Shown here: in pieces, positions 46,438 through 62,769 of the stretch
How positions within the stretch are numbered: the first letter of the stretch is position 1
Layout of the letters: every line of letters starts with the position of its first letter
Source: Microbacterium saperdae
GTDB taxonomy: Bacteria; Actinomycetota; Actinomycetes; Actinomycetales; Microbacteriaceae
Assembly: GCF_006716345.1 (NCBI RefSeq)
Contig: NZ_VFOX01000002.1
Span: 62,001-126,000, forward strand
Direction: 5' to 3'
DNA length: 64,000 nucleotides
Position numbers and translations under genes: made by a program
The notes under the pieces: model-generated
What the model was told of the DNA's origin: nothing
Database searches by the model: none
What the model saw: the letters and a program-made list of their open reading frames with translations, nothing else

Positions 46438-47259
46438 TCAGCCGAATCGCGCCGCCAGGGAGCTCTCGAGCTCGGACGCCGCGGCGCGCACGGCTTCGGT
46501 GATCTCGGCCCGGTGCTCTTCCGAGAGACGATAGGCGGGCGCGACCACGGTGATCGCTCCGATCACCGTGCCGTCGGAGCGTATGCCGGCCGCACTGGCC
46601 CACACACCCTGATCGACCTCGCCGGCGCTCTCGGCGTACCCCGACGCACGGATCTCATCGAGGTCGTGCTCCAGACGCTGGCGCACCGGCTTGGTCAGCG
46701 TGGAGCCGACGCGCTGCAGGTACTGGTTCAGCTTCGCGGGTGGCAGCGAGCTGAGCAGCAGCTTTGCCGCGGCGCCGCTGTGCAGCGGCATGAGGTGACC
46801 GGGCTGGAACGAGATGGAGATCGGATGGTCCGACTCGGCGATCGCGAGACACACCGCCGAATCGTTCACGCGGCGAAGGTACAGCGCCGTCTCACCCGTG
46901 GTCGCGGCCAGCCGATTAAGGATCGGCTGCGCCTGGGCGCGGTAGTCGAAGGTGGCCTCGGCGGCGCGGGCGAGACGCAGCACCTGCGGCGACAGCACGA
47001 ACCTGCCCTTCTCCCGCTCCTCGATCAGGTCCATCTCGCGCAGCAGCGAGATGTAGCGGTAGGCGCTCGGCACGGAGATGTCGTGATCCTCGAGAAGGTT
47101 CTCGAGCGTCAGCTCGGGAGCGGACTCCGTGAACTGCAGCAGGATCTGCAGGGCTCTGCGGGCGCTGTCCACGCCTTTGGTGCGTTGCGGGTGCGCATCT
47201 GCCGCAGCGGCCTTCTCGCCGCCCTCCTGCTCCGCGGGTACCTGCGCTTCATTCACCAT
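46438..47259 (-). CDS. IclR-family regulator of the B6 locus (predicted)
   Basis: A 273-residue IclR protein. Winged helix about 30-95 (LENLLEDHDISVPSAYRYISLL), effector domain with AVCLAIAESDHPI, MPLHSGAAAKLLLSSL and SAGEVDQGVWASAAGI. The ATG at 47259 has GAAGGG 6 bases upstream. It lies 52 bases after the pyridoxamine-pyruvate transaminase and is the last gene of that importer operon, so it is the best candidate for binding the shared TTCTCA/TGAGAA motif. Ligand might be a B6 vitamer or pathway intermediate (inference). Confidence 0.88.
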   Translation of the reverse strand: MVNEAQVPAEQEGGEKAAAADAHPQRTKGVDSARRALQILLQFTESAPELTLENLLEDHDISVPSAYRYISLLREMDLIEEREKGRFVLSPQVLRLARAAEATFDYRAQAQPILNRLAATTGETALYLRRVNDSAVCLAIAESDHPISISFQPGHLMPLHSGAAAKLLLSSLPPAKLNQYLQRVGSTLTKPVRQRLEHDLDEIRASGYAESAGEVDQGVWASAAGIRSDGTVIGAITVVAPAYRLSEEHRAEITEAVRAAASELESSLAARFG

Positions 47260-47311
47260 CGGAAGCCCTTCCGTCGATCTCGTCACGGCTGATGAACATC
47301 ATCGCCGCATG

Positions 47312-48472
47312 TCAGACCCGGCGTGCGCTCAACACGGCGAGTGCGGCATCCATGCCATCTCCGATGTCCACCGGAACCCCGAGATCCGCGAGCGTGCGGC
47401 CCAGTGCGGCCAGTCCGATGAGGGAGTGGAGACCTCCCGCCGTGGGGCCCATATGGGAGAGACGTACGAGATTGCCCGCCCCCTGGCCGTGCGACAACAT
47501 CACACCATACACGTCTCGTGCGTGGTCGCGGACGACCGCGTTGTCGATCGAATCCGGCAGCCGGATCGAGGTGACGCACGCCGACATGATCTCTTCGCGG
47601 ACGGCCCAGAACTCGAGGCCCATCGCCCGCGCACCGGCGCGGGTGACGTCGGCCGCAGCCTCATGGCGGGCGATCACCGCATCGATCCCCTCCTCCAGCG
47701 CCTGGTCGAGCGCGGACTCGAGTCCGTACATGTCGCTCACCGAGGGCGTATAGGGGAAGCGCCCCTCCCCGAGCCACTTCTCCTTCCAGTCGATCAGCGA
47801 CAGGTAGGAGTCCCGGGGCGCCGCGGGATTCGCGTAGATGGCCTCCCATGCCCGCGCACTGACCGAGACGAGCGCCACTCCCGCAGGACCGCCCAGGCAC
47901 TTCTGCCCTCCGGCCACGCAGATGTCCAGCCCCCAGGCGTCGGTCTCCCACTCCATGCCGAGCACCCCGGAGACGGTGTCGATGTAGGTGAGGATTCCCC
48001 GATCACGGCACATCGGTCCGATCGCCGCGACATCGGTCACCGTTCCGGACGGCGTCTCGGAGGCGACCAGACAGACCATCCGGATCTCGGGGTGCGCGTC
48101 CAGATACTCCTCCACGCGAGCCGGGTCCACGGCATCGTCGTAGCCCACCTCGATCTCGTGGAGCACCGCACCGAAGCCGGCGATCCAGTACCCGGTCCCC
48201 TTGCCGAACACCCCCTGCACCAGGTTCAGCACATGCATCCCCGGCGTGATGAGGGAGCGGAGAGCGCCCTCCAGCGCGACGATCGCCTCCCCCTGCATCA
48301 GGATGATGTCGTTCCCCGTGCGGAAGACCTCGGCGACCTTCTGCTCGGTACGCCGGAAGCCCGCTTGGAACTCCGGGTCGTAGTGATAGAGGATCGGGCG
48401 GCCGAGCGCGGCCTGCGTGCGCGGGGTGACCGTGACGGGGCCCGCGGAGAGCGTGAAGTCGGGAAGTGCCAT
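47312..48472 (-). CDS. Pyridoxamine-pyruvate transaminase (PPAT-like)
   Basis: A 386-residue class-V aminotransferase that would convert pyridoxamine plus pyruvate to pyridoxal plus alanine. From memory of the M. loti enzyme, many blocks align: LSAGPVTVTP, ILYHYDPEFQ, VLNLVQGVFGKGTGYW, FPYTPSVSDMYGLESALD, LSHMGPT. Glu62 and the PLP lysine Lys191 (GGQKCLGGPAG) sit 6 residues before M. loti Glu68 and Lys197, a constant offset. An alanine-glyoxylate or ureidoglycine transaminase is the alternative, but the neighbours favour B6. 33 bases after an importer permease in the same operon. Confidence 0.85.
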   Translation of the reverse strand: MALPDFTLSAGPVTVTPRTQAALGRPILYHYDPEFQAGFRRTEQKVAEVFRTGNDIILMQGEAIVALEGALRSLITPGMHVLNLVQGVFGKGTGYWIAGFGAVLHEIEVGYDDAVDPARVEEYLDAHPEIRMVCLVASETPSGTVTDVAAIGPMCRDRGILTYIDTVSGVLGMEWETDAWGLDICVAGGQKCLGGPAGVALVSVSARAWEAIYANPAAPRDSYLSLIDWKEKWLGEGRFPYTPSVSDMYGLESALDQALEEGIDAVIARHEAAADVTRAGARAMGLEFWAVREEIMSACVTSIRLPDSIDNAVVRDHARDVYGVMLSHGQGAGNLVRLSHMGPTAGGLHSLIGLAALGRTLADLGVPVDIGDGMDAALAVLSARRV

Positions 48473-48505
48473 GGAAGGGTTCCTCTCAGAGTGGAGCGAC
48501 GCGCG

Positions 48506-49441
48506 TCAGCGCGCGCCGCGCATGTAGGCAGCGCCCAGCGCGGGCGGGACGACCGAGCTGCGGGCGAAGACGATGAGCGTGATCATGACGACGACGAACG
48601 GCAGCATCTTGATGAAGTCCGCGGGCACGTTGAACCCGATCACCTGCAGAGCAGGGCCGATCGCGACCGCGAGCCCGTAGATCATCGAGGTGAGGATCAC
48701 GAGCGACATGCGGCCACGCGAGAGCATCGTGATCACGATCGCGATGAAGCCGAGGCCGTTCGTGATCATCGGGGTGAAGGTCGACGTGGTGAGTATCGCC
48801 AGGTACGCACCGCCGAGTCCGACGAACACGCCGTTGAGGATCACCGCCTGCGAGCGGGTCTTCATGACGCTGCCTCCCGCCGCATCCAGCGAGGAAGGCT
48901 TCTGACCCGCCGCTCGCGTCGACAGACCCCAGTTCGTCCGAGTGAGCAGGAAGCCCACCGCGATCACCAGGAGCAGCATGATCCAGAAGATCGCAGACTG
49001 CTGGAACACCGCGGGGCCGATGACCGGGATCTCCGAGAGACCGGGGATCGCGAAGGCCGGCGGCTTGCCCAGCCCCGTGGTGGTCTTGGCGTAGTTCTGC
49101 AGGTAGAGCACGGAGGTCAGTCCCTCACCCACGAGCGTCACCGCCAGTCCGATCACGATCTGATTGAGCCCGAGCCACACGTTCAGGATCAGCATCGCGA
49201 GGTTCGCGACGACGCCTCCCACCGCCCCGGCGAGCATGCCGAGCCAGAAGCTCCCGGTGACGAGAGTGGCGACGAACCCGGAGTAGGCCCCGATGAGCAT
49301 GACTCCCTCGATGCCGAGGTTGAGCACGCCGGCCTGCTCGCCCACGGTCTCTCCCGCGGAGGCGAGGATCAGGGGCATCGCCTGGGCGAGGACGGTGACG
49401 ATGAACACCGTCACGAAGGTCGCGGAGACCAGGTCGCTCAT
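48506..49441 (-). CDS. ABC transporter permease (BMP/nucleoside-type)
   Basis: A 311-residue inner-membrane permease of the NupC/YufQ type. PLILASAGETVGEQAGVLNLGIEGVMLIGA is the family opening, then LGLNQIVIGLAVTLVGEGL and GLGFIAIVITMLSRGRM. The ATG overlaps the previous permease stop by 4 bases. Part of the importer predicted to bring B6 vitamers into the cell. Confidence 0.9.
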   Translation of the reverse strand: MSDLVSATFVTVFIVTVLAQAMPLILASAGETVGEQAGVLNLGIEGVMLIGAYSGFVATLVTGSFWLGMLAGAVGGVVANLAMLILNVWLGLNQIVIGLAVTLVGEGLTSVLYLQNYAKTTTGLGKPPAFAIPGLSEIPVIGPAVFQQSAIFWIMLLLVIAVGFLLTRTNWGLSTRAAGQKPSSLDAAGGSVMKTRSQAVILNGVFVGLGGAYLAILTTSTFTPMITNGLGFIAIVITMLSRGRMSLVILTSMIYGLAVAIGPALQVIGFNVPADFIKMLPFVVVMITLIVFARSSVVPPALGAAYMRGAR

Positions 49442-50592
49442 GAGGTGGTCCTTCCGTCGCGGGCGAACGGGCGCGTCAGAGTGCGACGCAATCCCGGCGG
49501 CAGATAGCTCTGTCCGAGGCGGCGTCGATCGCCGATGTACTCGGTGATGGTCATGAAGATGAGGATGAGTCCGACGATCACGAGCAGGAAGTCGACATTG
49601 AGTCCGGCCTGCTGCGTCGCGAGCGTGCCCCCCGTTGCGAGCACCGCGTAGAACGCGACCAGCGGGATCGACCCCACGGGACTCAGCCGCGCGAGGAACA
49701 CGAACGGGAGGATCGCGGCACCGTAGGCCGGGTTCCAGTTCGCGCGCTGGTAGCTGTACTGCCCCAGGATGTCGATAGCACCGGCGAAGGCGATGATGCC
49801 ACTCGAGAGCGCGAAGATCAGGATGACCATCCATGTCGAGTTGATGCCCACATGGCGGGCCGCCTTCGGGCTCGCGCCGAACACGTCGAGCCGCAGCCCG
49901 AACGATGTGCGGCTCAGCACGAACTGGGCGAGAACCGCGAGCAGCAGCGCGATGATGAAGCCGATGTGGATCTCGGTCCCGGGGATGTACGGCAGCAGCT
50001 GATCGTCGGGGATCACACGGGTCTGCGGCATCGGGGTGTTCGGATCCTTGAGCGGTCCCTTGATCGCCAGATTGACGACGCCGATCGCGATGAACGACAT
50101 CACGAGAGAGGTGATGATCTCGTTGGTGCCGTACCGCGCCTTCAGGATCGCGGGAACGAGCGACCAGACGGCGCCCAGCGCGACGGCGGCGATGAAGATG
50201 ATCAGCGTCGCGAGCCAGGCGGGCATGACCGCGAACAGCACGGGACCCCCTCCCGAGGCGACCAGCGCCCCGAGCAGATACTGCCCGTTGTAACCGAGGT
50301 TCCAGAGCTGTCCACGGAACGCGACGATCAGCCCCAGGGCGACGATGAGGAGCGGCGCCATCAGCACGAGGCTGCGCTGCCAGTTGTCACCCGTGATCCC
50401 GTATGTCCAGACGCCGGCGAAGAAGTCCAGGGGGTTGGTGCCCATCGCCAGCATGATCAGGCCCGACGTGATGAGGGCGAGCAGGACCGGGAGCACGGAA
50501 CGGGCGAGGTCCGCGCCGATGCGCTGTACGCGGCTGGGAGGCACGATGGCCATCGACGCCGTGGTGGTGGGGCCGGGAGCGGTCGTCGTCAT
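49438..50592 (-). CDS. ABC transporter permease (BMP/nucleoside-type)
   Basis: A 384-residue partner permease (NupB/YufP type). Starts MTTTAPGPTTT, with a hydrophobic helix about 30-50, LWNLGYNGQYLLGAL, LKARYGTNEIITSLVMSF and FGASPKAARHVGIN in the cytoplasmic loop. The start overlaps the ATPase stop by 4 bases. Same importer operon. Confidence 0.9.
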   Translation of the reverse strand: MTTTAPGPTTTASMAIVPPSRVQRIGADLARSVLPVLLALITSGLIMLAMGTNPLDFFAGVWTYGITGDNWQRSLVLMAPLLIVALGLIVAFRGQLWNLGYNGQYLLGALVASGGGPVLFAVMPAWLATLIIFIAAVALGAVWSLVPAILKARYGTNEIITSLVMSFIAIGVVNLAIKGPLKDPNTPMPQTRVIPDDQLLPYIPGTEIHIGFIIALLLAVLAQFVLSRTSFGLRLDVFGASPKAARHVGINSTWMVILIFALSSGIIAFAGAIDILGQYSYQRANWNPAYGAAILPFVFLARLSPVGSIPLVAFYAVLATGGTLATQQAGLNVDFLLVIVGLILIFMTITEYIGDRRRLGQSYLPPGLRRTLTRPFARDGRTTS

Positions 50593-52184
50593 GCGCTCAC
50601 TCCTTCGATCGCACCGGTCATGTGCTGACCCACCTTCTCGGCCGTACCCGGCCCGTCGTTGATGACGCTGCCGACGAGGCGGCCGCGGGAGATCACCTCG
50701 ATGCGGTGGGAGAGCTCGACGAGTTCGTCGAGATCCGTCGAGAGCAGCAGCACCGAACCGCCGTTCGCGGCGAAGTCGATGAGGATCTCGCGGACCAGCC
50801 GCACGGTCTTGAGGTCGAGCCCGTAGGTGGGCTTGTTCACGATCACGAGGCGCGCCCCGTGCGTGAGTTCACGCGCGAGCAGGATCTTCTGGATGTTGCC
50901 ACCGGAGAGCGTGCCGGCGCGCGTCGCGGGCGAGGGCGTACGGATGCCGTACTCCTCGATCAGGCGTTCCGCCTCGGCGTCGACGACCTTGTCCTGGATC
51001 TGCCCCCACTTCCAGAAGGGGCGCTGGCCGATCCGTTTGATGACGAGGTTGAGCGAGACCGGCATGGAGCCGACGGTTCCCTCGTGCAGTCGGTCGTCCG
51101 TGACGTAGCGCAGACCGAGCTGCTGACGCCCGCGTACGCCGAGCCGCGTCACATCCTGCCCGTCGAAGAGCACCGTGCCCTGCGAGGCCGGGCGCTGACC
51201 GGCGATCACCTCGGCGAGCGCACCCTGCCCGTGCCCGTCGATCCCCGCGATTCCGAGGATCTCGCCCTCGTGCACCTGGAGCGTGGCTGCTTCGACCTCG
51301 ACATCGCGGCCGAGTCCATGGCTGGACACCCCGGTGAGCGAGAGGCGCACCGGGCTCTCGCTCCGGTCGATGCGCACGGTCTCCCTGGTGGTCTCGGTCG
51401 CGCCGGCGAGCTCGGCGGCATCGTCGACCTTCGCGAGGTCATCGCCGAACATGGCGTGCAGGATCGCGTCCTGCGCCTGGGCCTCGGAGTGGACGGCGAG
51501 CTCCTCGACCGAGATGTGCCCGACGTTGCGCCCCCCGCGCAGAACCGTGACGCAGTCGCCCATCGCGTAGGCCTCGCGCAGCTTGTGGGTGATGAAGACG
51601 ATCGCGAGCCCCCGCGCCTTGACTCTCTCGATGCTCTCACCGAGGTGTTCGATCGCCTGGGGGGTGAGCATCGACGTCGGCTCGTCGAGGATGAGCAGAC
51701 GGCTGCCCTTCCACATGGCCTTCGCGATCTCGACCTGCTGCTGCTGGCCGAGCCCCAGATCCGCGGCGAGCGCGTGCGGTTCGATGCGGACGCCGAGCAG
51801 TTCCGACAGCTCCTCCAGACGCTGGAGAGCCGACTTCCGGTCGAGCAGGAAACCGTTCTCACCCAGCATCAGGTTCTCGAGCACGGTGAACGCCGGTACG
51901 AGCGTGGAGTGCTGATGGACCACGCCGATGCCGTGGTCCACCGCTGCGCGCGGCGAGTTGATCGGCGTGAGCACGCCGTCGATCGAGATGGTTCCCGAGT
52001 CGGGCTGCTGCATCCCGGCGAGGATGCTGATGAGGGTGGACTTGCCGGCGCCGTTCTCGCCGAGAAGGCAGTGGACCTGACCGCTGACGATGTCGAGCGA
52101 GATCCGATCGTTCGCCACGACGCCGGGGAAGGCCTTGGTGATCTCGTGCAGCGAGATCACGCTCGGCTCTGTGGGTGATGACAC
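50589..52184 (-). CDS. ABC transporter ATPase, two nucleotide-binding domains
   Basis: A 531-residue duplicated ATPase of the sugar/nucleoside importer class. First domain has Walker A GENGAGKSTL and LLILDEPTSM. The second has the degenerate P-loop GIAGIDGHGQG, signature LSGGNIQK and an altered Walker B IVNKPTYGLD (Asn-Lys instead of Asp/Glu-Glu/Asn), as usual for second halves. GTG start with AAGGAG 8 bases upstream. Follows the binding-protein gene after an 81-base gap with a strong hairpin. Confidence 0.9.
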   Translation of the reverse strand: MSSPTEPSVISLHEITKAFPGVVANDRISLDIVSGQVHCLLGENGAGKSTLISILAGMQQPDSGTISIDGVLTPINSPRAAVDHGIGVVHQHSTLVPAFTVLENLMLGENGFLLDRKSALQRLEELSELLGVRIEPHALAADLGLGQQQQVEIAKAMWKGSRLLILDEPTSMLTPQAIEHLGESIERVKARGLAIVFITHKLREAYAMGDCVTVLRGGRNVGHISVEELAVHSEAQAQDAILHAMFGDDLAKVDDAAELAGATETTRETVRIDRSESPVRLSLTGVSSHGLGRDVEVEAATLQVHEGEILGIAGIDGHGQGALAEVIAGQRPASQGTVLFDGQDVTRLGVRGRQQLGLRYVTDDRLHEGTVGSMPVSLNLVIKRIGQRPFWKWGQIQDKVVDAEAERLIEEYGIRTPSPATRAGTLSGGNIQKILLARELTHGARLVIVNKPTYGLDLKTVRLVREILIDFAANGGSVLLLSTDLDELVELSHRIEVISRGRLVGSVINDGPGTAEKVGQHMTGAIEGVSA

Positions 52185-52265: not shown

Positions 52266-53354
52266 TCAGGCGCCCTTGGCGGCGATGACGTCGTTCACCT
52301 GGGCGGCGTTCTCCGCCGCGGTGGGCACGATCGATCCGTCGGCGATACCGGCCTTCGCGGTCTCGATGGCCGCCTGGATCTCCGCCGTCAGGTTGTCGGT
52401 CTCCTGCAACGAGAGCCCGCCGTTGTCGACCGTGAGCGCGTAGCCCTGCTCGCCGAAGGTGCCGGCCTCCACGTCCTTGATGGCCTGCTCGTAGGTGGAC
52501 GCGTAGTTCCACAGCACGGAGGTCAGCAGGACGTCGGTGTTGCTCAGGCCCGCTGTGACGTCGCCGATGTCGGCGATGTACTTGACGCCGTCCGCGGCCT
52601 CGACGGCCTGGAGGTATCCGTGCGTCGCACCGTCGCCCATGCCGAAGATGACGTCGGCACCCGAGGCGATCAGCTGCTCGGCAGCGGTCTTGCCGCCGGC
52701 CGCATCCGCGTACGCCGCCGGACCGACGGACGTGTAGAGCACGGAGATGGTCGGATCGACGCTGTAGACGCCCTCCGCGAAGCCGGACGACATCTTGAAC
52801 CAGTTGAGGTCATCGGCCGACACCACGATGCCGACGGTCTTGCTGGTCGTCGTCATGGCCGCCGCGATGCCGGCGAGGTAGCCGCCCTCCTGCGCCTCCG
52901 TCTTGGTGACGGCGATCTTGCCCGGGATGTTCTCTCCGGCGTCCTGGATGAGGATCGGGACGTTCTTCGCCTGGGCGACGCTCGTCGCGGCGACACCGTA
53001 GCCGGAGGCGTGGGCGATGATGAACTGCGCTCCGCTGTCAGCGACCTGACCGAGGACGGTCTCGGTGTTGTCCCAGCCGGCGTCGGGGACGAGCGTGACC
53101 TCGATGCCGAGCGACTCCGACGCCGCCGTGGCGCCGTCGAGCCCTGCCTGGTTCCATCCGAAGTCCGACTCGTTCTCGGGGGCGACGAGCGCGAACTGCT
53201 CGACGGTCGCGCCCGCCTCGCTGCTCGGCTCCCCCGAGGGGGAGTCGCCTCGACCGCCGGAGCAGGCGGCGAGGCTGAAGGCGATCACGACGATCGCGGC
53301 GGCTGTGGCTGTGCGTGTGCTGCGGCGCGGTGCGCCGCTCAGGGTAATAGGCAT
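52266..53354 (-). CDS. BMP-family substrate-binding lipoprotein
   Basis: A 362-residue exported lipoprotein (lipobox LAAC, Cys31) of the PnrA/BmpA family. FALVAPENESDFGWNQAGLDG, IIAHASGYG, EGGYLAGIAAAMTT and IFGMGDGATHGYLQAV are family features. Members usually bind purine nucleosides; the B6 enzymes around it suggest a pyridine ligand instead (inference). First gene of the importer-PPAT-IclR operon, downstream of the TTCTCA/TGAGAA motif. Confidence 0.9.
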   Translation of the reverse strand: MPITLSGAPRRSTRTATAAAIVVIAFSLAACSGGRGDSPSGEPSSEAGATVEQFALVAPENESDFGWNQAGLDGATAASESLGIEVTLVPDAGWDNTETVLGQVADSGAQFIIAHASGYGVAATSVAQAKNVPILIQDAGENIPGKIAVTKTEAQEGGYLAGIAAAMTTTSKTVGIVVSADDLNWFKMSSGFAEGVYSVDPTISVLYTSVGPAAYADAAGGKTAAEQLIASGADVIFGMGDGATHGYLQAVEAADGVKYIADIGDVTAGLSNTDVLLTSVLWNYASTYEQAIKDVEAGTFGEQGYALTVDNGGLSLQETDNLTAEIQAAIETAKAGIADGSIVPTAAENAAQVNDVIAAKGA

Positions 53355-53411: not shown

Positions 53412-53451
53412 TTTCTCACAATGTGTCGGGATAGCGATACAGTATGAGAAA
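53412..53451. promoter_or_regulatory. B6-locus operator 1
   Basis: TTTCTCA (53412-53418) and TGAGAAA (53445-53451). The TTCTCA and TGAGAA starts are 32 bp apart. Upstream of the binding-protein operon and of the small lipoprotein gene; a rightward -10 TACAGT lies at 53438-53443. Confidence 0.65.
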
Positions 53452-53532: not shown

Positions 53533-53928
53533 ATGGCTCGACAGAACATGAGCGCGTACGTCGCGCTGGCTTTCATTCTCGCCCTGACCGGTTGCGCTGC
53601 ACAGCCGGCGCTGTCCGACAGGGACGCTGCCGCGCTCGCGCAGCTCGATGCGGTGGCCGGCCCGACGTCGGGTGTCGACGCCGACGCCATCACCGACACG
53701 GAGTGCTGGCTGCCCTCGGAGCACATGCTCGAGGAGGGCGTCGACTCCGACACGATGTGGCGCGTCCTGTGCCGGGTGCACTACAAGACCCCGACGAGCG
53801 AGCGCTATCAGGACACCACCTGCATCGGCGACTTCGCGGCCGAGCCCATGCTCGACCACTGCTACCGCTGGACCCACTACGACTTCGCCCAGGTGTTCGA
53901 GGACCACCCCGGAGTGGGCGCCAGCTGA
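53533..53928 (+). CDS. Small lipoprotein inside the B6 locus
   Basis: A 131-residue predicted lipoprotein (lipobox LTGC, Cys21). The mature part has four cysteines (DTECWLP, RVLCRVH, TTCIGDF, DHCYRWTHYDF), likely two disulfides, and I recognise no family. GGAGG lies 7 bases before the ATG. It shares the operator region with the importer operon and ends about 130 bases before the lactonase gene, so it may be co-regulated. A weak hairpin GCCGG/CCGGC (53944-53958) follows. Confidence 0.78.
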   Translation: MARQNMSAYVALAFILALTGCAAQPALSDRDAAALAQLDAVAGPTSGVDADAITDTECWLPSEHMLEEGVDSDTMWRVLCRVHYKTPTSERYQDTTCIGDFAAEPMLDHCYRWTHYDFAQVFEDHPGVGAS

Positions 53929-53981
53929 CCGCTCGCTCCGGATGCCGGTGTTTCCGGCGGGTAAAACTCCCCAATGACCTC

Positions 53982-54037
53982 TTGACACCTTCCCCGTTGT
54001 TCTCATAGCTTGAACGTCAATTACCGCAATATGAGAA
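53982..54037 (+). promoter_or_regulatory. Lactonase-operon promoter and B6-locus operator 2
   Basis: -35 TTGACA (53982-53987), 18-bp spacer, -10 TAGCTT (54006-54011). TTCTCATA (54000-54007) overlaps the -10 and its perfect inverse TATGAGAA (54030-54037) lies downstream. TTCTCA and TGAGAA starts are again 32 bp apart. Confidence 0.75.
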
Positions 54038-54059
54038 TCTATGAAAGGTAAGGTCAGCG

Positions 54060-54818: not shown

Positions 54819-54885
54819 GCGCGACCACCCGGCACACCAGCCGACACACCACACCCGACAGCAGGAACAGAAGGAGCATCAGGAC

Positions 54886-55620
54886 ATGGCCGAGAAAGAG
54901 CAGCGCGTCGCGATCGTGACCGGAGCCGCGCAGGGCATCGGTGCGGCAATCGCCGAAGAGCTGGCAGCGGATGGCGTGAAGGTCGTCGTCACCGACATCA
55001 ACGCCACCGGCGCCACGGCGGTGGCCGAGCGGATCGGCGGCGTCGCGAAGGCCCTCGACGTCAGCGACCCCGATGCCGTCGCGGCCGTGGTCTCGGAGGT
55101 GGTCGACGAACTCGGGCGCATCGACATCCTCGTCAACAACGCCGCCCTCGTGCCGCTCACCGCATGGGAGGACATCACGTTCGCGGAGTGGCGACGCGTC
55201 ATGTCGGTCAACCTCGACGGCATCTACCTCATCACGCACGCGGTGACCGAGGTCATGGGCCGCGCCGGATACGGCCGCATCGTCAACATCGCTTCGAACA
55301 CCTTCGTCGCGGGCACCCCGAACTGCGCGCACTACGTCGCGACGAAGGGCGCATCCATCGGCCTCGTGCGCGGCCTGGCCGGCGAACTCGGCAAGAACGG
55401 CATCACGATCAACGCCGTCGCCCCCGGCATCATCGCGAGCGAAGGCGTGCTGAACGGACCCCACGTGAACGGGTTCGACTACGTGGTGCCGATGCAGGCG
55501 TTCGACCGCCGCGGATTGCCGCAGGACGTCGCTCCTGCCGTCGCCTTCCTGGCCTCGGAGAAGGCCGGGTGGATCACGGGCCAGACGCTCGTGGTCGATG
55601 CCGGCCACACGCGCAACTGA
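54886..55620 (+). CDS. Pyridoxal 4-dehydrogenase (SDR, M. loti type)
   Basis: A 244-residue short-chain dehydrogenase that would oxidise pyridoxal to 4-pyridoxolactone with NAD. Motifs: TGAAQGIGAAIAEELAADG, DILVNNAALVP, NIASNTFVAGTPN, YVATKG (Tyr/Lys), WITGQTLVVDAG. The last two blocks and SNTFxAGTPN match what I recall of the tetrameric M. loti enzyme. Note that the enzyme described from Microbacterium luteolum is an aldo-keto reductase instead. AAGGAG 9 bases before ATG; between lactonase and oxidase genes. Confidence 0.87.
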   Translation: MAEKEQRVAIVTGAAQGIGAAIAEELAADGVKVVVTDINATGATAVAERIGGVAKALDVSDPDAVAAVVSEVVDELGRIDILVNNAALVPLTAWEDITFAEWRRVMSVNLDGIYLITHAVTEVMGRAGYGRIVNIASNTFVAGTPNCAHYVATKGASIGLVRGLAGELGKNGITINAVAPGIIASEGVLNGPHVNGFDYVVPMQAFDRRGLPQDVAPAVAFLASEKAGWITGQTLVVDAGHTRN

Positions 55621-55624
55621 CTCC

Positions 55625-57166
55625 ATGCACGCCGACATCCTCATCATCGGTGCCGGCTCGGCGGGCAGCGTCCTGGCGAATCGCCTGAGCGCTGACCCGT
55701 CGCGGCGGGTCGTCGTGCTCGAGGCCGGCGCCCGGGTGGATGACCCCGACATGCGCCGCCCCGAGCTCTGGCCGTTCATCCACGGACGCTCCTACGACTG
55801 GGACTACCGCACGGTGGCACAGCCGGGCCTCGGTGGACGCCGTCTCGACTGGGCACGTGGGAAGGGGCCGGGCGGATCGAGCCTCGTGCACGCCATGGCC
55901 CACATGCGCGGATGCCGTGCGGACTTCGACCGGTGGGTGGAGGCCACCGGCGACGCGCGGTGGTCCTGGGACGCGCTTCTGCCCCACTTCCGCCGCATGG
56001 AGACCTTCTCAGGAGGGGCGGATGAGGTGCACGGCGACACGGGACCGCTCCCCGTCCTGCTGCCGGGGCCGGAGCTGTCGAGCCCGCTCGTGGCGGACTA
56101 CCTCTCGGCATGGAACGCGCTGGGCGTACCGCGCATCGCCGACCACAACGGCGGGGAGATGCTCGGGGCCACACCGAACTCCCTGACCATCCGCGACGGC
56201 GAGCGGGTCACGGTCGCCGACGTCTACCTCGACCCGGTGGTCGATCGCCCGAACCTGACGCTCCTCACGGGCGTCACGGTGCATCGGCTCGTGATCGAGC
56301 GCGGCCGCGTGACGGGCGCGAGAGTGACCAGGGGCGGACAGGACGAGACCATCGAGGCCGACGAGGTGATCCTCGCCGGCGGATCCATCGGAGATCCGCT
56401 GCTGCTCATGCGCTCGGGCGTGGGCGACCCCGAGATACTCGCCGGCGCGGGCGTCGAGACGGTGCTCGAGTCGCGCGGCGTGGGACGGAATCTGCACGAT
56501 CACCTGCTCGGCGCCGGCAATGTCTACCGGGCGCGACGCGCCGTGCCCCCGACGCGCTTGCAGCTGTCGGAATCCATGACGTACCTGTCGCTCGCGGGAC
56601 TCGATCGCACCGAGGGCGCCGCCGACATCGTCGTGGGCTGCGTGATCGGCCCGAGTATGTCGGAGTCCTTCGCGCCTGCGGAGCGCGAGGGCGCCGTTCC
56701 CGGCGAGGCGTACACGCTGCTGTTCGGTGTCACGAACCCCACGAGTCGCGGTTCGCTGCGCATCTCCGGCCCGGAGATCGACGACGAGCCCGTGATCGAT
56801 CCCCGGTATCTCCAGACCGAGCACGACCGTGCGGCGTTCCGCGCCGCACTCGCGCATGCACGTCTCGTGGGCGCATCGGCGGGACTCGACGAGTGGCGCG
56901 ACCGTGAGCTGCTGCCCGCGGCCGACCTGAGCGACGCCGCGGCCGACGCGTTCATCGCCCGCGCCGCGATCACGCATCACCACCCGGTGGGAACCGTGCG
57001 GATGGGGGCCGACGACGACGCTCCGGTGACGCCCGACCTCCGCTTCCGCGGCCTCGACGGACTGCACGTGGTCGATGCCTCCGTGATCCCCTCGATCACC
57101 GCGGGCCCCGTGCATGCCTCCGTGCTCGCGATCGCGGAGTCCTTCGCGGACACCTATCCGGGCTAG
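55625..57166 (+). CDS. Pyridoxine 4-oxidase (GMC flavoprotein)
   Basis: A 513-residue GMC oxidoreductase that would oxidise pyridoxine to pyridoxal with O2. FAD motif LIIGAGSAGSVLA at the N-terminus; GMC signature GKGPGGSSLVHAM. The active-site end has His451-His453 (ITHHHPVGTVRMG) and AGPVHAS with Pro495 where most GMC enzymes carry His or Asn. I recall His460, His462 and Pro504 in the M. loti enzyme; the 44-residue interval is the same. Starts 4 bases after the dehydrogenase stop. A choline-dehydrogenase-type activity is the alternative. Confidence 0.85.
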   Translation: MHADILIIGAGSAGSVLANRLSADPSRRVVVLEAGARVDDPDMRRPELWPFIHGRSYDWDYRTVAQPGLGGRRLDWARGKGPGGSSLVHAMAHMRGCRADFDRWVEATGDARWSWDALLPHFRRMETFSGGADEVHGDTGPLPVLLPGPELSSPLVADYLSAWNALGVPRIADHNGGEMLGATPNSLTIRDGERVTVADVYLDPVVDRPNLTLLTGVTVHRLVIERGRVTGARVTRGGQDETIEADEVILAGGSIGDPLLLMRSGVGDPEILAGAGVETVLESRGVGRNLHDHLLGAGNVYRARRAVPPTRLQLSESMTYLSLAGLDRTEGAADIVVGCVIGPSMSESFAPAEREGAVPGEAYTLLFGVTNPTSRGSLRISGPEIDDEPVIDPRYLQTEHDRAAFRAALAHARLVGASAGLDEWRDRELLPAADLSDAAADAFIARAAITHHHPVGTVRMGADDDAPVTPDLRFRGLDGLHVVDASVIPSITAGPVHASVLAIAESFADTYPG

Positions 57167-57232: not shown

Positions 57233-57952
57233 TCAGACGTCCGCGCCCAGGAACAGTCGCTGCGCCGTGCGATGCATGACGTCCTCGAGGTCCTCGGCGT
57301 CGAGTCCCGCGAGCTGCACCTTGAGCTGCTCGACCTTCGGCTCATGCCACGGACCGTCGGAGCCGTACATGACCCGGTTCGATCCGACCTTGCGCACCGC
57401 TTCGAGGATCTTGATGCTCATCGGCATTCCACTGGTCTCGAGCCAGACGTTCGGGTGTCTCTGTGCGACCCCGATCGACGCATCGATGTAGATGATGTTG
57501 CCGTGTCCCATGTGACCGAGGATGATCTTGGCGTCCTCGTAGCGTGCGATGAGCTCCTCGATGCTCCACGGCAGCGAGAAGATCGGATGCCCGCAGTGGA
57601 TGAGCGCCGGCAGATCGCGTTCGATCAACAGCTCGATGATCGGCCAGACCATCGGATCGTCCGGATGGAACCCATCCATCAGCGGGTGCAGCTTGACCCC
57701 GCGGAACTTCGGATCGTCCAGGAAGTCCTTCAGCTCCGGGATCGGATCGCCGAGCTTGGGATTCGCCCAGTACAGCCCGTAGGCGCCGGGGATGTCCTGG
57801 ATGACCCGCCGCACCATCGCGTTGTCCTGGTGGAAGACGAAGCCGGTGTCGATGTCGTTCTTCGCGAGGTACTCGGCGAGGTGATCCTCGTCGAGCTTCA
57901 CACCGAACGTCGGGAAGTCCCCGACGTGCATGTGGGCATCGGTGATCGACAT
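57233..57952 (-). CDS. Amidohydrolase-2 family TIM-barrel protein
   Basis: A 239-residue metal-dependent hydrolase or decarboxylase. Early metal motif TDAHMHVGDF, then RGVKLHPLMDGF, ALIHCGHP, IILGHMGHGN and MYGSDGPW (final Asp). The family includes amidases, lactonases and non-oxidative decarboxylases (ACMSD type). Last gene of the seven-gene B6 operon, 10 bases after the PEBP gene. No role for it is known to me in the described pathway; it could act on an intermediate or side product. Confidence 0.82.
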   Translation of the reverse strand: MSITDAHMHVGDFPTFGVKLDEDHLAEYLAKNDIDTGFVFHQDNAMVRRVIQDIPGAYGLYWANPKLGDPIPELKDFLDDPKFRGVKLHPLMDGFHPDDPMVWPIIELLIERDLPALIHCGHPIFSLPWSIEELIARYEDAKIILGHMGHGNIIYIDASIGVAQRHPNVWLETSGMPMSIKILEAVRKVGSNRVMYGSDGPWHEPKVEQLKVQLAGLDAEDLEDVMHRTAQRLFLGADV

Positions 57953-57962
57953 GATCGGATGC

Positions 57963-58418
57963 TCAGCGCGAGAACGTACCGACGTAGCGGGCCTGCTCGA
58001 TGATCGAGTCGGCGTGGGACGCGAGGAACTCCTCGCGGGTCGGCGTTCCCTCGACGCGCGCACTCAGCGCGTAGACCCAGAAGTAGTAGTGATGCTGCCC
58101 GTGCCCGACCGGCGGCTGTGGACCGAACCACGCCGTCTGCGTCGTCCCGTTCGGCGCTTCGCGGATGCCCTCGGCTGCCAGGTCGAGCGTGGCGGCATCG
58201 GCCGGGATGCCGTAGACCGCCCAGTGGGTGAACCCCTGCGCCAGCGGTGCGTCAGGATCGTGCACGACGACGGCGAGCTCGACCGTGCCTGCGGGGGCGC
58301 CGGAGAGCGCGATGGCGGGGACCTCGTTGCCGCCGTCCGCCGTGAGGCGGTCGGGGATGCGGGCGAGGCCGTCGAAGTCGGGGCTCGAGATGGCGAGCTT
58401 GTCGATGAAGAGAGGCAT
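57963..58418 (-). CDS. YbhB/YbcL-type PEBP protein
   Basis: A 151-residue phosphatidylethanolamine-binding-protein fold. VVVHDPDAPLAQGFTHWAVYGIP and GHGQHHYYFWVYAL contain the conserved D-P-D-A-P and His pocket residues. Bacterial members are of largely unknown function and may bind small anionic ligands. AAGGA 4 bases before the ATG; embedded in the B6 operon between the hydrolase and amidohydrolase genes. Confidence 0.85.
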   Translation of the reverse strand: MPLFIDKLAISSPDFDGLARIPDRLTADGGNEVPAIALSGAPAGTVELAVVVHDPDAPLAQGFTHWAVYGIPADAATLDLAAEGIREAPNGTTQTAWFGPQPPVGHGQHHYYFWVYALSARVEGTPTREEFLASHADSIIEQARYVGTFSR

Positions 58419-58432: not shown

Positions 58433-59272
58433 TCAGATGCCGAGAACGCGGGCGATCTCGGCGGCGACGAGGAGCGGATGCTCCTCGGGGATGTAGTGGT
58501 CTGCGTCGTCGACGACGACCCAGCGGTCGTCCGGGCGATCGGCGCGCGCGCGTCGCCAGGCCTGCTCGCTCACGATCCTGCTGTCGGCACCGCGCAGGTG
58601 GGTCATCGTCGCGGAGACATCGCGGAAGGCGGCGTCCCACGGCGTCCGGAATCCCTCGATCAGCAGGCGCATGGCGCGCTTGTCCGCACGGGCGACCCAG
58701 CGGCCGTCGGCGTCCTGCACATAACCCCATCGCGCGCGACGCGCGATCGCGCCGGGGAGGATCGCGGTGTAGCGGGCGCGCAGGTACTCCTCGATCTCGG
58801 CGACGTCGTCGAACGACCGGAAGCCGTCCGCGACGCGCGTGTCGAGCACGTCGAGGACCGAGTCCTCGACGTAGGGCGTGTAGTCCACGACGACGGCGCC
58901 CGTCACCCGATCCGGATGCCGGGCCGCCGCGACCCAGGCGTTGCGCCCGCCGAGCGAGTGCCCGGCGACCACGGCATCCGCGATGCCGAGTGCGTCGAGA
59001 ACCGTGACGACATCAGCGGCGAAATCCGAGGCCCCATAGCCGGTGGCCGGCTTGTCGCTGCGCCCATGCCCGCGCTGGTCGAGCGCGACCACGGTCGCCC
59101 GATCCGCGAGCGCATCGCCGACGGGTTCCCAGACCGCATGGTGGGCCGAGGTGCCGTGCAGCAGCACGACCGCGGGGCCGGACCCCCGCACGCGGAAAGC
59201 GATGTCGACATCGGCGCCCTGCGTGCGGAGGAGTCCGTCCTCGATGGTCTCGACCGATACCTCGGCGACCAT
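58433..59272 (-). CDS. E-2-(acetamidomethylene)succinate hydrolase (alpha/beta fold)
   Basis: A 279-residue alpha/beta hydrolase that would split E-2-(acetamidomethylene)succinate to succinic semialdehyde, acetate, ammonia and CO2, the final step of the pathway. Nucleophile elbow GHSLGG with Ser106, Asp130, and His259 (DDADHYIPEEHP). I recall the M. loti triad as Ser106, Asp130, His258, a near-exact positional match. VVLLHGTSAHHAVW carries the oxyanion region. The start overlaps the previous stop by one base (TGATG). Confidence 0.88.
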   Translation of the reverse strand: MVAEVSVETIEDGLLRTQGADVDIAFRVRGSGPAVVLLHGTSAHHAVWEPVGDALADRATVVALDQRGHGRSDKPATGYGASDFAADVVTVLDALGIADAVVAGHSLGGRNAWVAAARHPDRVTGAVVVDYTPYVEDSVLDVLDTRVADGFRSFDDVAEIEEYLRARYTAILPGAIARRARWGYVQDADGRWVARADKRAMRLLIEGFRTPWDAAFRDVSATMTHLRGADSRIVSEQAWRRARADRPDDRWVVVDDADHYIPEEHPLLVAAEIARVLGI

Positions 59273-60207
59273 CAGACCTCGGGGATGGAGGAGAGCGTCT
59301 TGCGCGCGGCGATGAGGCCGGTGATGATCTCCTTGCGCTTGGCGTCGACGTCTCCCGGACCGTACTCGTACATCCCGGCGCCGGACTTGAACCCGAGCTT
59401 GCCTTCGGCGATCTTGTCGAGGATCAGCTTCGGGGTCTCGGTGCTCGCATCCAGCTCCTTGTTCAGGTAGCCCGAGACGGCCTGGTAGATGTCGAGACCG
59501 GCCATGTCGAGGAGACGGGTCGGTCCGACCACGGAGAGCTTGTAGCCGATGCCCCACTTGACGCACGCGTCGAGACCCTCGGGGGTGACGATGCCCTCGT
59601 CGAGCAGCGCCATGCACTCGCGCAGGATCGCGTACAGCACGCGGTTCTCGACGAAGCCGGGGATCTCCTTCTCGAGCACCGGCACATAGTCGAACGCCTT
59701 CACGATCCCGATGAGCTTCTCGACCAGCGCGGGATCGGTGTCCTCACCGGGGATGACCTCGATCATCGGGATCAGGTGCGGCGGGTTCGACCAGTGCATG
59801 CCGATCAGACGTCCCGGCAGGGTCATGCTCTTGCCCATGGTCGTGATCGGGATGCCGGACGTGTTCGTGGCGATGATGACCTCGTCGCCGATGCGGGCCT
59901 CGAGGTCGGCGAGCACCTTCTGCTTGAGGTCGAGACGCTCGGGAACCGCCTCGATGATCAGCTCACTGCCTTCGAGGGAGGCATCGAGGTCGGTCCCGAA
60001 GGTGACCGAACCCCCGGGTGCCGAGGGCGAGTCGACGGCGGCGAGGACGCCCTGGACCACGCCGTACGCCGCTTCCGCACGTTCGATGGCCTCGGTGGAG
60101 ATGTCGTACAGGCGTACGGTCACGCCCGCACGGGCGAGGGTGGCGGCGATGCCGGGGCCCATGGTTCCGGAACCCACGACGGTGGCGATGCGGGGAAGGC
60201 TGCTCAT
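59272..60207 (-). CDS. FHMPC 5-dehydrogenase (3-hydroxyacyl-CoA dehydrogenase family)
   Basis: A 311-residue NAD enzyme. Rossmann motif VVGSGTMGPGIAATLARAG, NTSGIPITTMG, and MHWSNPPHLIPMIEVIPG with His138 (I recall catalytic His137 in M. loti). C-terminal dimer domain ENRVLYAILRECMALLDEG. Predicted to oxidise 5-formyl-3-hydroxy-2-methylpyridine-4-carboxylate to the 4,5-dicarboxylate. By sequence alone it might be called 3-hydroxybutyryl-CoA dehydrogenase; the gene order argues against that. Confidence 0.87.
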   Translation of the reverse strand: MSSLPRIATVVGSGTMGPGIAATLARAGVTVRLYDISTEAIERAEAAYGVVQGVLAAVDSPSAPGGSVTFGTDLDASLEGSELIIEAVPERLDLKQKVLADLEARIGDEVIIATNTSGIPITTMGKSMTLPGRLIGMHWSNPPHLIPMIEVIPGEDTDPALVEKLIGIVKAFDYVPVLEKEIPGFVENRVLYAILRECMALLDEGIVTPEGLDACVKWGIGYKLSVVGPTRLLDMAGLDIYQAVSGYLNKELDASTETPKLILDKIAEGKLGFKSGAGMYEYGPGDVDAKRKEIITGLIAARKTLSSIPEV

Positions 60208-60236: not shown

Positions 60237-61016
60237 TCAGATGGCGGGCGGGAGAGCGATCGGCGAGATGCCGATGCCGTAGGTGGCTTCCACGCGCTCG
60301 AGGCGACGGTTGAAGTACGTCCAGAAGTTGTGCTGCGCCTTGGCCGGGTAGATCCGGTCGAACTTCTCCCTGGTCTCCTCCGGTGTCGGCTCGATCGGCG
60401 TGAATCCGGAAGCACCGAGGTCGACCTGGAAGCGGGCCGCCTTCTCGAGGAAGATGCCCGTGAGCGTCACCTCGGCGACCGTCGAGCCGACGAAGGCGAT
60501 GCCGTGGTTGGCGAGCAGCAGCGCCTGCGCGTCGCCGAGCGCGGCGGCCGCGGCGACGCCGAGCGGCACCGTGGTGATGATGTGGCTCGTCTCGGCGAAG
60601 CGCGGCACTCCCTCATAGGCGAACCAGACCCCGTGGTTGTTGTACGGCTTGAGCTGTTCATGCGAGGCACCCAGCAGCGTCGAGAAGTGCGCGTGGGAAT
60701 GACCGACGAAGTTCACGTCGGGGCGCGCCTTCATGATCTCCGCATGCAACGGCCATTCGAGATGCCGCAGCCCCGTGCCTTCGAGCACGTTGCCGTCGAA
60801 GTCGATCAGGATGAAGTCGTCACCCTCGACCTCGCTCAGCGCGAGATTGCCGCGCTTGAGCCAGAGCCCCCGCCCGAAGGGATCGCGGAACGAGAGGTGC
60901 CCCATCGACATGTCGCCGTGGCCCTCCAGCTCGAGGATGCGATGCGCGCGGGCCACGTCGGCGAGCACGCTGGCGATGGACTGGTCCTCGTAGTACTGCG
61001 AATGCGTGTAGGTCAC
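60237..61016 (-). CDS. HMPDC decarboxylase (class II aldolase family)
   Basis: A 259-residue class-II-aldolase/adducin-fold enzyme with the zinc ligands in FVGHSHAHFSTLLG and LLANHGIAFVG, and the GHGDMSMGHLSFRD opening. Within a B6 locus it corresponds to 3-hydroxy-2-methylpyridine-4,5-dicarboxylate 4-decarboxylase, the only class-II-aldolase-type step of the M. loti route. 29 bases upstream of the dehydrogenase gene in the same transcript. Alternative: a fuculose-phosphate-aldolase-like enzyme. Confidence 0.85.
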   Translation of the reverse strand: MTYTHSQYYEDQSIASVLADVARAHRILELEGHGDMSMGHLSFRDPFGRGLWLKRGNLALSEVEGDDFILIDFDGNVLEGTGLRHLEWPLHAEIMKARPDVNFVGHSHAHFSTLLGASHEQLKPYNNHGVWFAYEGVPRFAETSHIITTVPLGVAAAAALGDAQALLLANHGIAFVGSTVAEVTLTGIFLEKAARFQVDLGASGFTPIEPTPEETREKFDRIYPAKAQHNFWTYFNRRLERVEATYGIGISPIALPPAI

Positions 61017-61057
61017 GCTGTCTCCTCGGGGTGTCGGCGCCCGTGCGGGCGATGCTC

Positions 61058-61639
61058 TCAGGGTCGGGCAAGGACTTCGGCGGCGGTGATGCCACCGACG
61101 CGGGCGTTCAGACGCCCTCCGGTGGCGACCGCGGCGATGATGACGAGCTCATCGGGGCGGGGCGCATCGGGCAGCGTCAGCGTGATCGCGTCGTAGTGCG
61201 ACCGCACGTAGACCTCATCCTTGTACGCGAGGGGGATGTCGATCGAGCTTCCGGCTGCGGCGGATTTGGTGGCGGACGAGATCCACGCCTCTCCTCCGCC
61301 GATGGCGTCGCGGAATGCGTTGCCGAAGACCGTGGTCACGCACGCGACGACGTGCTCCTGCTCGCCGTCGAGTCCGGCGATGCCGCCCTTGCCGTAGCTC
61401 TCGGCAGGACGCCCGCCGAGGAGGGCCAGCGCCCGGGCGCCGAGCTCGGTGCCCAGACTCGCACTGGGGTCGATGAGCGGCGACAGATCCTCGACCCAGC
61501 GTCCGGCGAAGGGATTCTTGATCACGACGGCGACCGCGGCCTTGACGAGAGGGAGGGCGGGCGCGGGGCCGACCTCGTGCAGCGTCTCCTGCACGAAGGA
61601 GTGGAACGCGCGGACCTGGTAGACGGAATCGATGCTCAT
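61058..61639 (-). CDS. DUF1185 (amino acid synthesis family) protein
   Basis: A 193-residue protein of the PF06684-type family, found near catabolic gene clusters but without a defined reaction. LVKAAVAVVIKNPFAGRWVEDL, ELGARALALLGGRPAESYGKGG and the GGEAWISS segment are visible family features. The ATG overlaps the oxygenase stop by 4 bases, so it is translationally coupled. A candidate for an undescribed auxiliary function in B6 breakdown. Confidence 0.8.
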   Translation of the reverse strand: MSIDSVYQVRAFHSFVQETLHEVGPAPALPLVKAAVAVVIKNPFAGRWVEDLSPLIDPSASLGTELGARALALLGGRPAESYGKGGIAGLDGEQEHVVACVTTVFGNAFRDAIGGGEAWISSATKSAAAGSSIDIPLAYKDEVYVRSHYDAITLTLPDAPRPDELVIIAAVATGGRLNARVGGITAAEVLARP

Positions 61640-62769
61640 GCGGGGACCTCGTGTCGGTGCGGATCGGTCGGGTTGTAGAGGGCGGTGGTCACGGTCTCGC
61701 CTTGGAACTGGTTGCCCTTGGCCATCTCGCGGGTGTCGGCGTACCACTGGGAGCGGTCCTGCGCGAGGTCGGTCAGCGGACGCTCGAGGCGCTCCCACTC
61801 CTGCAGCGCCTCGGGGATCGACGCCGCCTCGGTCGCGGCGGCGGCCAGGGTCCAGGCGTTCTGCATCGCGCACCCGGCCCCCTGCGCCAGCGCGGGGCAC
61901 ATGGCGTGGGCGGCATCGCCGATCAGCGCGACCTTGCCTTCGGTCCAGTGGTCGAGGCGCGTCGTCTGGTAGCCGTAGTAGCGTCCGGGGATCTTCGCCG
62001 CATCCGCCAGCACGGGAGCCAGCTGCGGGAACACCGAGGTCCACAGGTCGAGGTCGATCGGCACGCGCGAACCCTGCGCATCGGCGGCGGGCGCCATCAG
62101 TGCGATGTAGAGCTCCTGATCGTTCGCCGGGGTGTAGAGCACGCGCAGCACGCGGGGCTCGAGGTTCCAGAAGTCGATGACGTTGTCCCACTCGGTGTCG
62201 GGCTCGAGCGCCTGCAGTTCGGCCTTGCGGCGGGGAACGAGGAAGCGCGTGATGCCATCGCGCGAACGCTGACGCTCGAGCGGGATGCCGAGCGAGTCGC
62301 GCACGGCCGATCCGACTCCGTCGGCACCGATGATGAGGTCGGCCTCGGCCGTCTCGCCGTTCGCGAACGAGATCGTCCCGTCGGCCGTCGCGCCGGTGAC
62401 CTCGGATCCGCTGATGATCTCGACGCCGGCCTCACGCGCGGCGACCAGCAGGGTCTGGTGCAGGTGCGGACGGGTGAGGGTGCGCCAGCGGATGCCGTCG
62501 AGTGTCTCCTGCGACTGGATGACGTTGTTCATGCGCGTCTCGTACGCCGGGGGTGTCATGGAGTTCGACATGAGATCCGGACCGGCCTTGATCTTGTCGA
62601 GCACCTGGAGGCTGTTGTTCCACAACACGATCCCCGCTCCCTCCGCACGCAGCTCGGGGCTGCGCTCGTGGAGTCGCACGCTCCAGCCCATCTGTGCCAG
62701 GGCGGTGGCTGCGGTGAGACCCGCGAAGCCGCCACCCGAGATCTCGGCGTGGCGTCGGCGTTCTGTCAT
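61636..62769 (-). CDS. 2-Methyl-3-hydroxypyridine-5-carboxylate oxygenase (MHPCO)
   Basis: A 377-residue FAD monooxygenase that cleaves the pyridine ring, giving E-2-(acetamidomethylene)succinate. FAD motif ISGGGFAGLTAATALAQMGW, then LHERSPELRAEGAGIVLWNN, DLIIGADGVGS, LMAPAAD, VPIDLDLW and KVALIGDAAHAMCPALAQG. Each block has a close counterpart in the M. loti MHPCO (379 residues) as I remember it, including WNN/WHN and AHAMCPALAQGAGCAM. Salicylate hydroxylase is excluded by that detail. First gene of the seven-gene B6 operon. Confidence 0.9.
   Translation of the reverse strand: MTERRRHAEISGGGFAGLTAATALAQMGWSVRLHERSPELRAEGAGIVLWNNSLQVLDKIKAGPDLMSNSMTPPAYETRMNNVIQSQETLDGIRWRTLTRPHLHQTLLVAAREAGVEIISGSEVTGATADGTISFANGETAEADLIIGADGVGSAVRDSLGIPLERQRSRDGITRFLVPRRKAELQALEPDTEWDNVIDFWNLEPRVLRVLYTPANDQELYIALMAPAADAQGSRVPIDLDLWTSVFPQLAPVLADAAKIPGRYYGYQTTRLDHWTEGKVALIGDAAHAMCPALAQGAGCAMQNAWTLAAAATEAASIPEALQEWERLERPLTDLAQDRSQWYADTREMAKGNQFQGETVTTALYNPTDPHRHEVPA

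Follow-up and report, generated by a model that had tools for sequence, protein, structure and literature searches.

How an actinobacterium could degrade vitamin B6 along a route resembling pathway I of Mesorhizobium loti, when its genes for that route include no 4-pyridoxate dehydrogenase, is the question raised by a locus of Microbacterium saperdae. The locus occupies positions 46438-62769 of a stretch of 64,000 nt (assembly GCF_006716345.1, contig NZ_VFOX01000002.1, forward strand, 62,001-126,000; G000:C2:62001-126000 in our genome set), called here the window, which belongs to a genome of 4.3 Mb. Its genes form three units: the MHPCO unit, on the minus strand from 62769 to 57233 (MHPCO, DUF1185 protein, aldolase-fold protein, FHMPC dehydrogenase, AAMS hydrolase, PEBP-like protein and amidohydrolase); the lactonase unit, on the plus strand from 53533 to 57166 (small lipoprotein, lactonase, pyridoxal dehydrogenase and pyridoxine 4-oxidase, PNO); and the importer unit, on the minus strand from 53354 to 46438 (BMP protein, ATPase, two permeases, an aminotransferase resembling pyridoxamine-pyruvate transaminase, PPAT, and an IclR regulator). 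The individual reactions of pathway I are established, and Microbacterium strains degrading pyridoxine are known. A sequence-only reading of the window had proposed a near-complete B6 degradation locus of the pathway I type; the open frames that it named are all present where it had placed them, and both the comparisons with M. loti and the gene sets of relatives support the proposal. Four genes of the locus had no name in that reading: those of the DUF1185 protein (61058-61639), the PEBP-like protein (57963-58418), the amidohydrolase (57233-57952) and the small lipoprotein (53533-53928). From these comparisons we hold with good confidence that the locus is a vitamin B6 catabolic one, an actinobacterial variant of the M. 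loti pathway I, a route described for M. loti and Pseudomonas (PMC6253932, PMC3538738). A pathway whose genetics have been worked out chiefly in Mesorhizobium would in this locus have a second form.

Counterparts of the M. loti enzymes

The enzymes predicted for the pathway are the following, with the solved structures that they match best:

61636..62769, minus strand: MHPCO, ring-opening flavin monooxygenase (M. loti MHPCO 3alj, 421 bits; next family 103)
58433..59272, minus strand: AAMS hydrolase (3kxp, 194 bits; next 73), catalytic and substrate residues kept
59272..60207, minus strand: FHMPC dehydrogenase of the 3-hydroxyacyl-CoA dehydrogenase family (4om8, 299 bits; next 144)
55625..57166, plus strand: PNO, of the GMC family (4ha6, 561 bits; next family 274)
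54886..55620, plus strand: pyridoxal 4-dehydrogenase, SDR type (3ndr, 249 bits; next 180; NF047923 391, cut-off 325)
54060..54818, plus strand: 4-pyridoxolactonase (3aj3, 260 bits; next 129; NF047925 430, cut-off 325)
47312..48472, minus strand: PPAT-like class V aminotransferase, presumed to convert pyridoxamine to pyridoxal (2z9u, 334.5 bits; next 138)
60237..61016, minus strand: class II aldolase-fold protein, candidate HMPDC decarboxylase (sequence, tree, fold and residue comparisons)

For seven of the eight enzymes named by the sequence-only reading, the best solved-structure match was the corresponding M. loti enzyme, each time with a gap to the next family, the narrowest being that of pyridoxal dehydrogenase (249 versus 180 bits). 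Six of the eight can be called firm by best match (PNO, MHPCO, FHMPC dehydrogenase, lactonase, pyridoxal dehydrogenase and AAMS hydrolase), and the PPAT-like and HMPDC decarboxylase candidates are weaker. Measured against the curated NCBIfam equivalog cut-offs, the lactonase and the pyridoxal dehydrogenase lie above, and the PPAT-like protein (NF046070, pyridoxamine-pyruvate transaminase, 405.7 versus 600 bits) and the FHMPC dehydrogenase (NF042925, 384 versus 500 bits) below. The latter should nevertheless work as its name says, because its residues are conserved and 4om8 is its best structure match.

For comparison with relatives, a scan of named genomes yielded 164 loci, and the 80 best entered the analysis, 36 of them actinobacterial and 44 proteobacterial by their titles; the presence of a gene in each locus was called by identity thresholds, and since some loci are cut by contig ends, absences are upper bounds. 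Residues were checked for three enzymes. FHMPC dehydrogenase keeps Ser117, His138, Asn141, Glu150 and Asn188 in the actinobacterial and proteobacterial groups and has at position 115 Asn in actinobacteria and Asp in proteobacteria; we take the roles of these residues to be those of 3-hydroxyacyl-CoA dehydrogenases. For AAMS hydrolase, conservation reaches at least 90% in each of the two groups at Ser106, Asp130, His259 (which is His258 in M. loti), Arg146, Arg167, Tyr168, Arg179, Ser231, Tyr260 and Glu263, the roles of the M. loti residues being taken from PMC3538738. His96 and His98 of the lactonase align with the M. loti enzyme, and Asp100 and His101 are also present. The catalytic residues claimed beforehand (Ser106 and Asp130 of AAMS hydrolase, His138 of FHMPC dehydrogenase, His96 and His98 of the lactonase) were thus all seen in the alignments.

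Compared with the pathway I cluster of M. loti (L097, CJ3sym), identities over tblastn segments are 54% for MHPCO, 59% for DUF1185, 56% for PEBP, 46% for FHMPC dehydrogenase, 40% for AAMS hydrolase and 53% for PNO, and a BMP importer is linked there too; a further alignment of PNO with its CJ3sym homologue has 273 identities in 506 aligned residues. The window differs from that cluster in its gene order, in having no 4-pyridoxate dehydrogenase, in having a divergent aldolase-fold protein in place of the HMPDC decarboxylase, and in a PPAT-like protein that lacks one M. loti arginine. Could the locus then degrade another substituted pyridine, and B6 only by a side activity? Three reduced loci without FHMPC dehydrogenase (L067, L072, L076) suggest that the ring-opening module may serve other inputs, but the scores of the lactonase and pyridoxal dehydrogenase of the window, above their equivalog cut-offs, and the 561-bit match of its PNO to pyridoxine 4-oxidase make such a function very improbable.

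Read as a B6 pathway, the locus would work as follows. Pyridoxamine and pyridoxine would be converted to pyridoxal by the PPAT-like enzyme and PNO, respectively, and pyridoxal to 4-pyridoxate by pyridoxal dehydrogenase and the lactonase. The NAD-dependent FHMPC dehydrogenase would then, as the most likely solution, oxidise the 5-hydroxymethyl group twice to give 3-hydroxy-2-methylpyridine-4,5-dicarboxylate (HMPDC), which the aldolase-fold protein would decarboxylate at the 4-carboxyl group before MHPCO opens the ring. Finally, AAMS hydrolase would release acetate, ammonia, CO2 and succinic semialdehyde. What the comparisons show for this scheme is gene order, homology, co-occurrence, conserved residues and the places where the operator-like repeat occurs; all substrates, the double oxidation, the specificity of transport and the regulation are inferred.

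The first step may have changed its partner. At the position of the M. loti PPAT arginine, which we take to be Arg336, the ligand of the substrate carboxylate, the aligned proteins carry Gln in 9 of 9 actinobacterial loci and Arg in 3 of 3 proteobacterial ones; the surrounding motif is GQGA-G(N/D) in the former, one of which is the window copy, and GR(G/A)ETLGK in the latter. With this presumed ligand gone, the amino acceptor of the PPAT-like enzyme may differ from that of M. loti PPAT.

The aldolase-fold protein required more care. By sequence its first match is 8iqa (82 bits), a pyruvic oxime dioxygenase, and the M. loti HMPDC decarboxylase 2z7b comes fifth (55.5 bits); by fold the two are tied; and a tree test of 2z7b as the closest relative gave 94/88, unstarred, in a tree leaving out L174 and seven PF00596 rows duplicating members of the clusters (L172, L177, L178, L182, L184-L186). 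Glu31, His106, His108 and His171, presumably the metal site by analogy with class II aldolases, are kept by 90% or more of the proteins in each group. The case for HMPDC decarboxylase is made by the position of the gene and by the metal-site residues in common, not by clear homology; removal of the 4-carboxyl group by this protein is quite probable. Instead of a simple decarboxylase, the protein might be a non-haem iron oxygenase that takes part in the oxidation of 4-pyridoxate or replaces a step of the known route: the best sequence and fold match points that way, and NovR and TqaM, non-haem iron enzymes by their PDB titles, rank just behind. Identity to the pyruvic oxime dioxygenases (8iqa, 8il8, 8ix6) is 24-27%, and the other genes of the locus indicate pyridine breakdown. 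We regard the oxygenase as improbable.

The oxidation of 4-pyridoxate

The missing dehydrogenase separates the two phyla sharply: of the loci with FHMPC dehydrogenase, 40 of 40 from proteobacteria and 0 of 34 from actinobacteria have a 4-pyridoxate dehydrogenase (4-PADH, a GMC enzyme) in the cluster. Genome-wide, the 4-PADH of M. loti CJ3sym used as query found an orthologue of at least 81% identity in all 4 proteobacterial genomes, one of which is the source of the query; in 25 actinobacterial genomes nothing exceeded 45%, a level that we treat as background because proteobacterial paralogues of 4-PADH also reach it, and 5 of these genomes gave no match at 1e-40. The three GMC matches in the M. 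saperdae genome are 38-41% identical.

Three layouts recur among the actinobacterial loci. The window has the one called type A. Type B (L056, L058, L063) is a single run without PNO, containing lactonase, pyridoxal dehydrogenase, MHPCO, DUF1185, aldolase-fold protein, FHMPC dehydrogenase, AAMS hydrolase, PEBP, IclR and importer. Type C begins with a different ABC importer, followed by MHPCO, DUF1185, aldolase-fold protein, FHMPC dehydrogenase, AAMS hydrolase, PEBP and IclR, and was seen in Streptomyces, Arthrobacter and others (L042, L044, L055, L060, L061, L062, L064, L065, L070). Among the type B genomes, that of Ruicaihuangia (G315, L058) has no PF00732 (GMC) match at 1e-3 and nonetheless possesses the lactonase (73%), the PPAT-like gene (63%), pyridoxal dehydrogenase and the lower gene run. 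In the nine type C genomes, the lactonase search gave no match at 1e-15 in 8 and one of 34% in the ninth, and the search for a PPAT orthologue none at 1e-40 in 7 and matches of 34 and 40% in the other two. Since type C keeps FHMPC dehydrogenase and the aldolase-fold protein without lactonase or PPAT, its input is most simply 4-pyridoxate, and these loci likely start there. FHMPC dehydrogenase is the sole recognised dehydrogenase of the type C run, in which the genes stand too close together to accommodate a further one. 4-Pyridoxate is the form in which animals excrete B6, and type C loci suggest that streptomycetes and their relatives may live on it.

The absence of 4-PADH, the Ruicaihuangia genome without a GMC match and the single recognised dehydrogenase of type C led us to propose that the actinobacterial FHMPC dehydrogenase performs both oxidations, that of 4-pyridoxate itself included, a proposal for which we see the chances as even. 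It narrows the gap of 4-pyridoxate oxidation in actinobacteria to one candidate enzyme. The M. loti FHMPC dehydrogenase is reportedly a dismutase that also forms 4-pyridoxate, which would speak for two oxidations by one enzyme; this was not counted as evidence.

Other genes of the locus were considered for the missing step. The amidohydrolase was rejected for its presence in 11 of the 36 actinobacterial loci only, and DUF1185 and PEBP because proteobacterial loci have both alongside 4-pyridoxate dehydrogenase. An SDR gene at 62994-63824 was set aside, as relatives show only weak and scattered SDR matches (29-38%), and so was PNO as a double oxidase, since type B and type C loci have none.

An explanation which departs from ours in the 4-pyridoxate step only is that an unlinked oxidoreductase elsewhere in the genome performs it, FHMPC dehydrogenase carrying out just its known reaction. 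Operons may be incomplete, and the genome-wide search covered GMC-family enzymes. Such an oxidoreductase would nevertheless have to be unlinked in every one of 34 loci, which come from several actinobacterial families, when nearly all other lower-pathway genes stay linked (aldolase-fold protein in 34 of 36, DUF1185 in 34, AAMS hydrolase in 33, PEBP in 32), and the spacing of types B and C allows no spare gene between MHPCO and PEBP; we consider it rather unlikely.

The DUF1185 and PEBP-like partners

Besides the recognised enzymes, two proteins accompany the pathway in both phyla:

61058..61639, minus strand: DUF1185 (PF06684) protein, conserved pathway partner (PF06684 209.8 bits; 2qtp 144.6 bits)
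57963..58418, minus strand: PEBP/YbhB-like protein, conserved pathway partner (PF01161 107.7 bits)

Of the 36 actinobacterial loci, 34 contain DUF1185 and 32 the PEBP-like protein; of the 44 proteobacterial ones, 43 contain DUF1185 and 43 the PEBP-like protein. Trees separated both from their paralogues: the 11 DUF1185 rows from B6 loci of both phyla stand on one branch (100/100) against 18 paralogues from the same genomes, and the 9 PEBP rows on another (100/100) against 4, one incompletely read row having been dropped from each tree (L254 and L261, respectively). The three reduced loci contain AAMS hydrolase, importer genes (by eye), MHPCO, DUF1185 and PEBP, with neither FHMPC dehydrogenase nor decarboxylase, and the retention of the two partners there ties them to ring opening or later steps. 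These loci may import a hydroxypyridine carboxylate directly.

We speculate that DUF1185 and the PEBP-like protein assist at ring opening or afterwards, perhaps by handling the unstable enamine product of AAMS hydrolase. Several loci weigh against a general requirement: L066 has PEBP beside MHPCO and no DUF1185 of the B6 type, L071 has neither, and PEBP seems dispensable in G303, which has none. That both proposals hold jointly, one soluble NAD-dependent enzyme performing the four-electron conversion of 4-pyridoxate to HMPDC and a two-protein DUF1185/PEBP helper of ring opening shared across phyla, can be put forward tentatively, at somewhat less than an even chance. In any case the locus provides a pathway context for DUF1185 and for a branch of PEBP, for neither of which an assigned enzymatic role was found.

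A partial parallel is offered by the trigonelline cluster of Acinetobacter baylyi, which reportedly uses other ring-opening enzymes and another substrate than the B6 locus: it includes a DUF1185-type protein, TgnF, and succinic semialdehyde is also a product of the B6 pathway. According to PMC7913881, TgnF, a homologue of the DUF1185-family protein HcdD, stimulates the TgnE-dependent oxidation of succinic semialdehyde, and attempts to show a similar effect for HcdD failed. Outside the B6 branch, DUF1185 genes lie side by side in pairs in L066 (G327:C1:176602-177708) and in G323, G326, G315 and G316, and the family may act in pairs in other pathways.

Uptake, regulation and distribution

The transporter and the regulator of the sequence-only reading were specified by Pfam profile matches as a BMP-type ABC system and an IclR-type protein, and operator-like repeats were found upstream of the units:

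52266..53354, minus strand: PnrA/BMP-type substrate-binding protein, candidate B6 vitamer receptor (PF02608 74.2 bits)
50589..52184, minus strand: ABC ATPase with two nucleotide-binding domains (PF00005, two stretches)
49438..50592, minus strand: ABC permease (PF02653 116.1 bits)
48506..49441, minus strand: ABC permease (PF02653 100.8 bits)
46438..47286, minus strand: IclR-family regulator, candidate for the locus (PF01614 95.7 bits, PF09339 26.7 bits)
53413..53450, minus strand: inverted repeat upstream of the importer unit, operator-like (TTCTCAT-N24-GTGAGAA, exact)
54000..54037, plus strand: inverted repeat upstream of the lactonase unit, operator-like (TTCTCAT-N24-ATGAGAA, exact), overlapping the presumed -10 region (by eye), its spacing conserved in relatives
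62834..62871, plus strand: weaker operator-like site before the MHPCO unit (matrix score 20.4 versus a maximum of -0.8 in 20 one-strand shuffles)

The importer probably takes up B6 vitamers: in a tree with 18 other BMPs from these genomes, the 6 BMP proteins of B6 loci, drawn from both phyla, group together (100/100), which makes it a candidate PnrA/BMP-type B6 importer. Of nine 20-kb type A regions, all 9 contain importer genes, 8 have IclR closing the importer unit, 6 have the PPAT-like gene and 4 the amidohydrolase; the region of L197, one of the nine, ended inside the importer unit. Proteobacterial loci carry a different regulator (by eye GntR-like; family F8) in place of the IclR gene.

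Comparison of the upstream regions of the lactonase and importer units revealed the repeat TTCTCAT-N24-RTGAGAA. In actinobacterial relatives, 25 half sites were counted in 20 lactonase upstream regions and 26 in 17 importer regions, with 1.2 expected in each case by shuffling; upstream of MHPCO the enrichment is small (5 in 36 regions versus 1.6 expected), and many of these regions score no better than shuffles. A search of 22 whole genomes located the exact repeat at 13 places in 9 of them, every one at the B6 locus, and a reversed control pattern 0 times. With one mismatch allowed, 21 places lie at the locus, in 13 of 13 type A genomes, and 6 elsewhere, 2 of them in the 9 genomes without a type A locus; the genomes are related, and the copies are not independent events. 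The overlap with the presumed -10 region is what would be expected of a repressor site, and IclR probably controls the units through these operator-like repeats, which are nearly locus-specific and usable for studies of regulation. A further site with two mismatches (45072-45109) lies inside a MarR-like-looking open frame (44912-45427), perhaps by chance.

The sequence-only reading had also suggested that no actinobacterial cluster of such a layout had been described. None was recognised in the open-licence literature, but the locus is not unique, as 36 of the 80 kept relatives are actinobacterial, and many MHPCO homologues already carry that name in one source. Likewise, the accessible parts of the open-licence literature yielded nothing on the missing-enzyme question, on a link of DUF1185 or PEBP to B6, on a BMP-type B6 importer or on the operator. 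Within the family Microbacteriaceae, 20 of 299 sampled genomes, that of M. saperdae included, contain MHPCO at 1e-60 or better; none of 5 other listed genomes of the genus does at this threshold, and a plasmid search with MHPCO gave nothing at 1e-60 either. PNO was found in 18 of the 36 actinobacterial loci. A foreign origin of the locus was considered, and its G+C (0.677 versus 0.687 for the window) points neither way.

Two genes of the window locus remain:

53533..53928, plus strand: small lipoprotein (by eye) of family F19, conserved at this position, between importer unit and lactonase unit, across 14 actinobacterial loci
57233..57952, minus strand: amidohydrolase-2 protein (PF04909 109.9 bits), last in the MHPCO unit and optional, as 11 of 36 actinobacterial loci have it

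Finally, a protein resembling M20-type peptidases or amidohydrolases (by eye; family F26, in 9 actinobacterial loci) is found just before MHPCO, at about 1.2-1.4 kb, in L035, L036, L037, L043 and L048.

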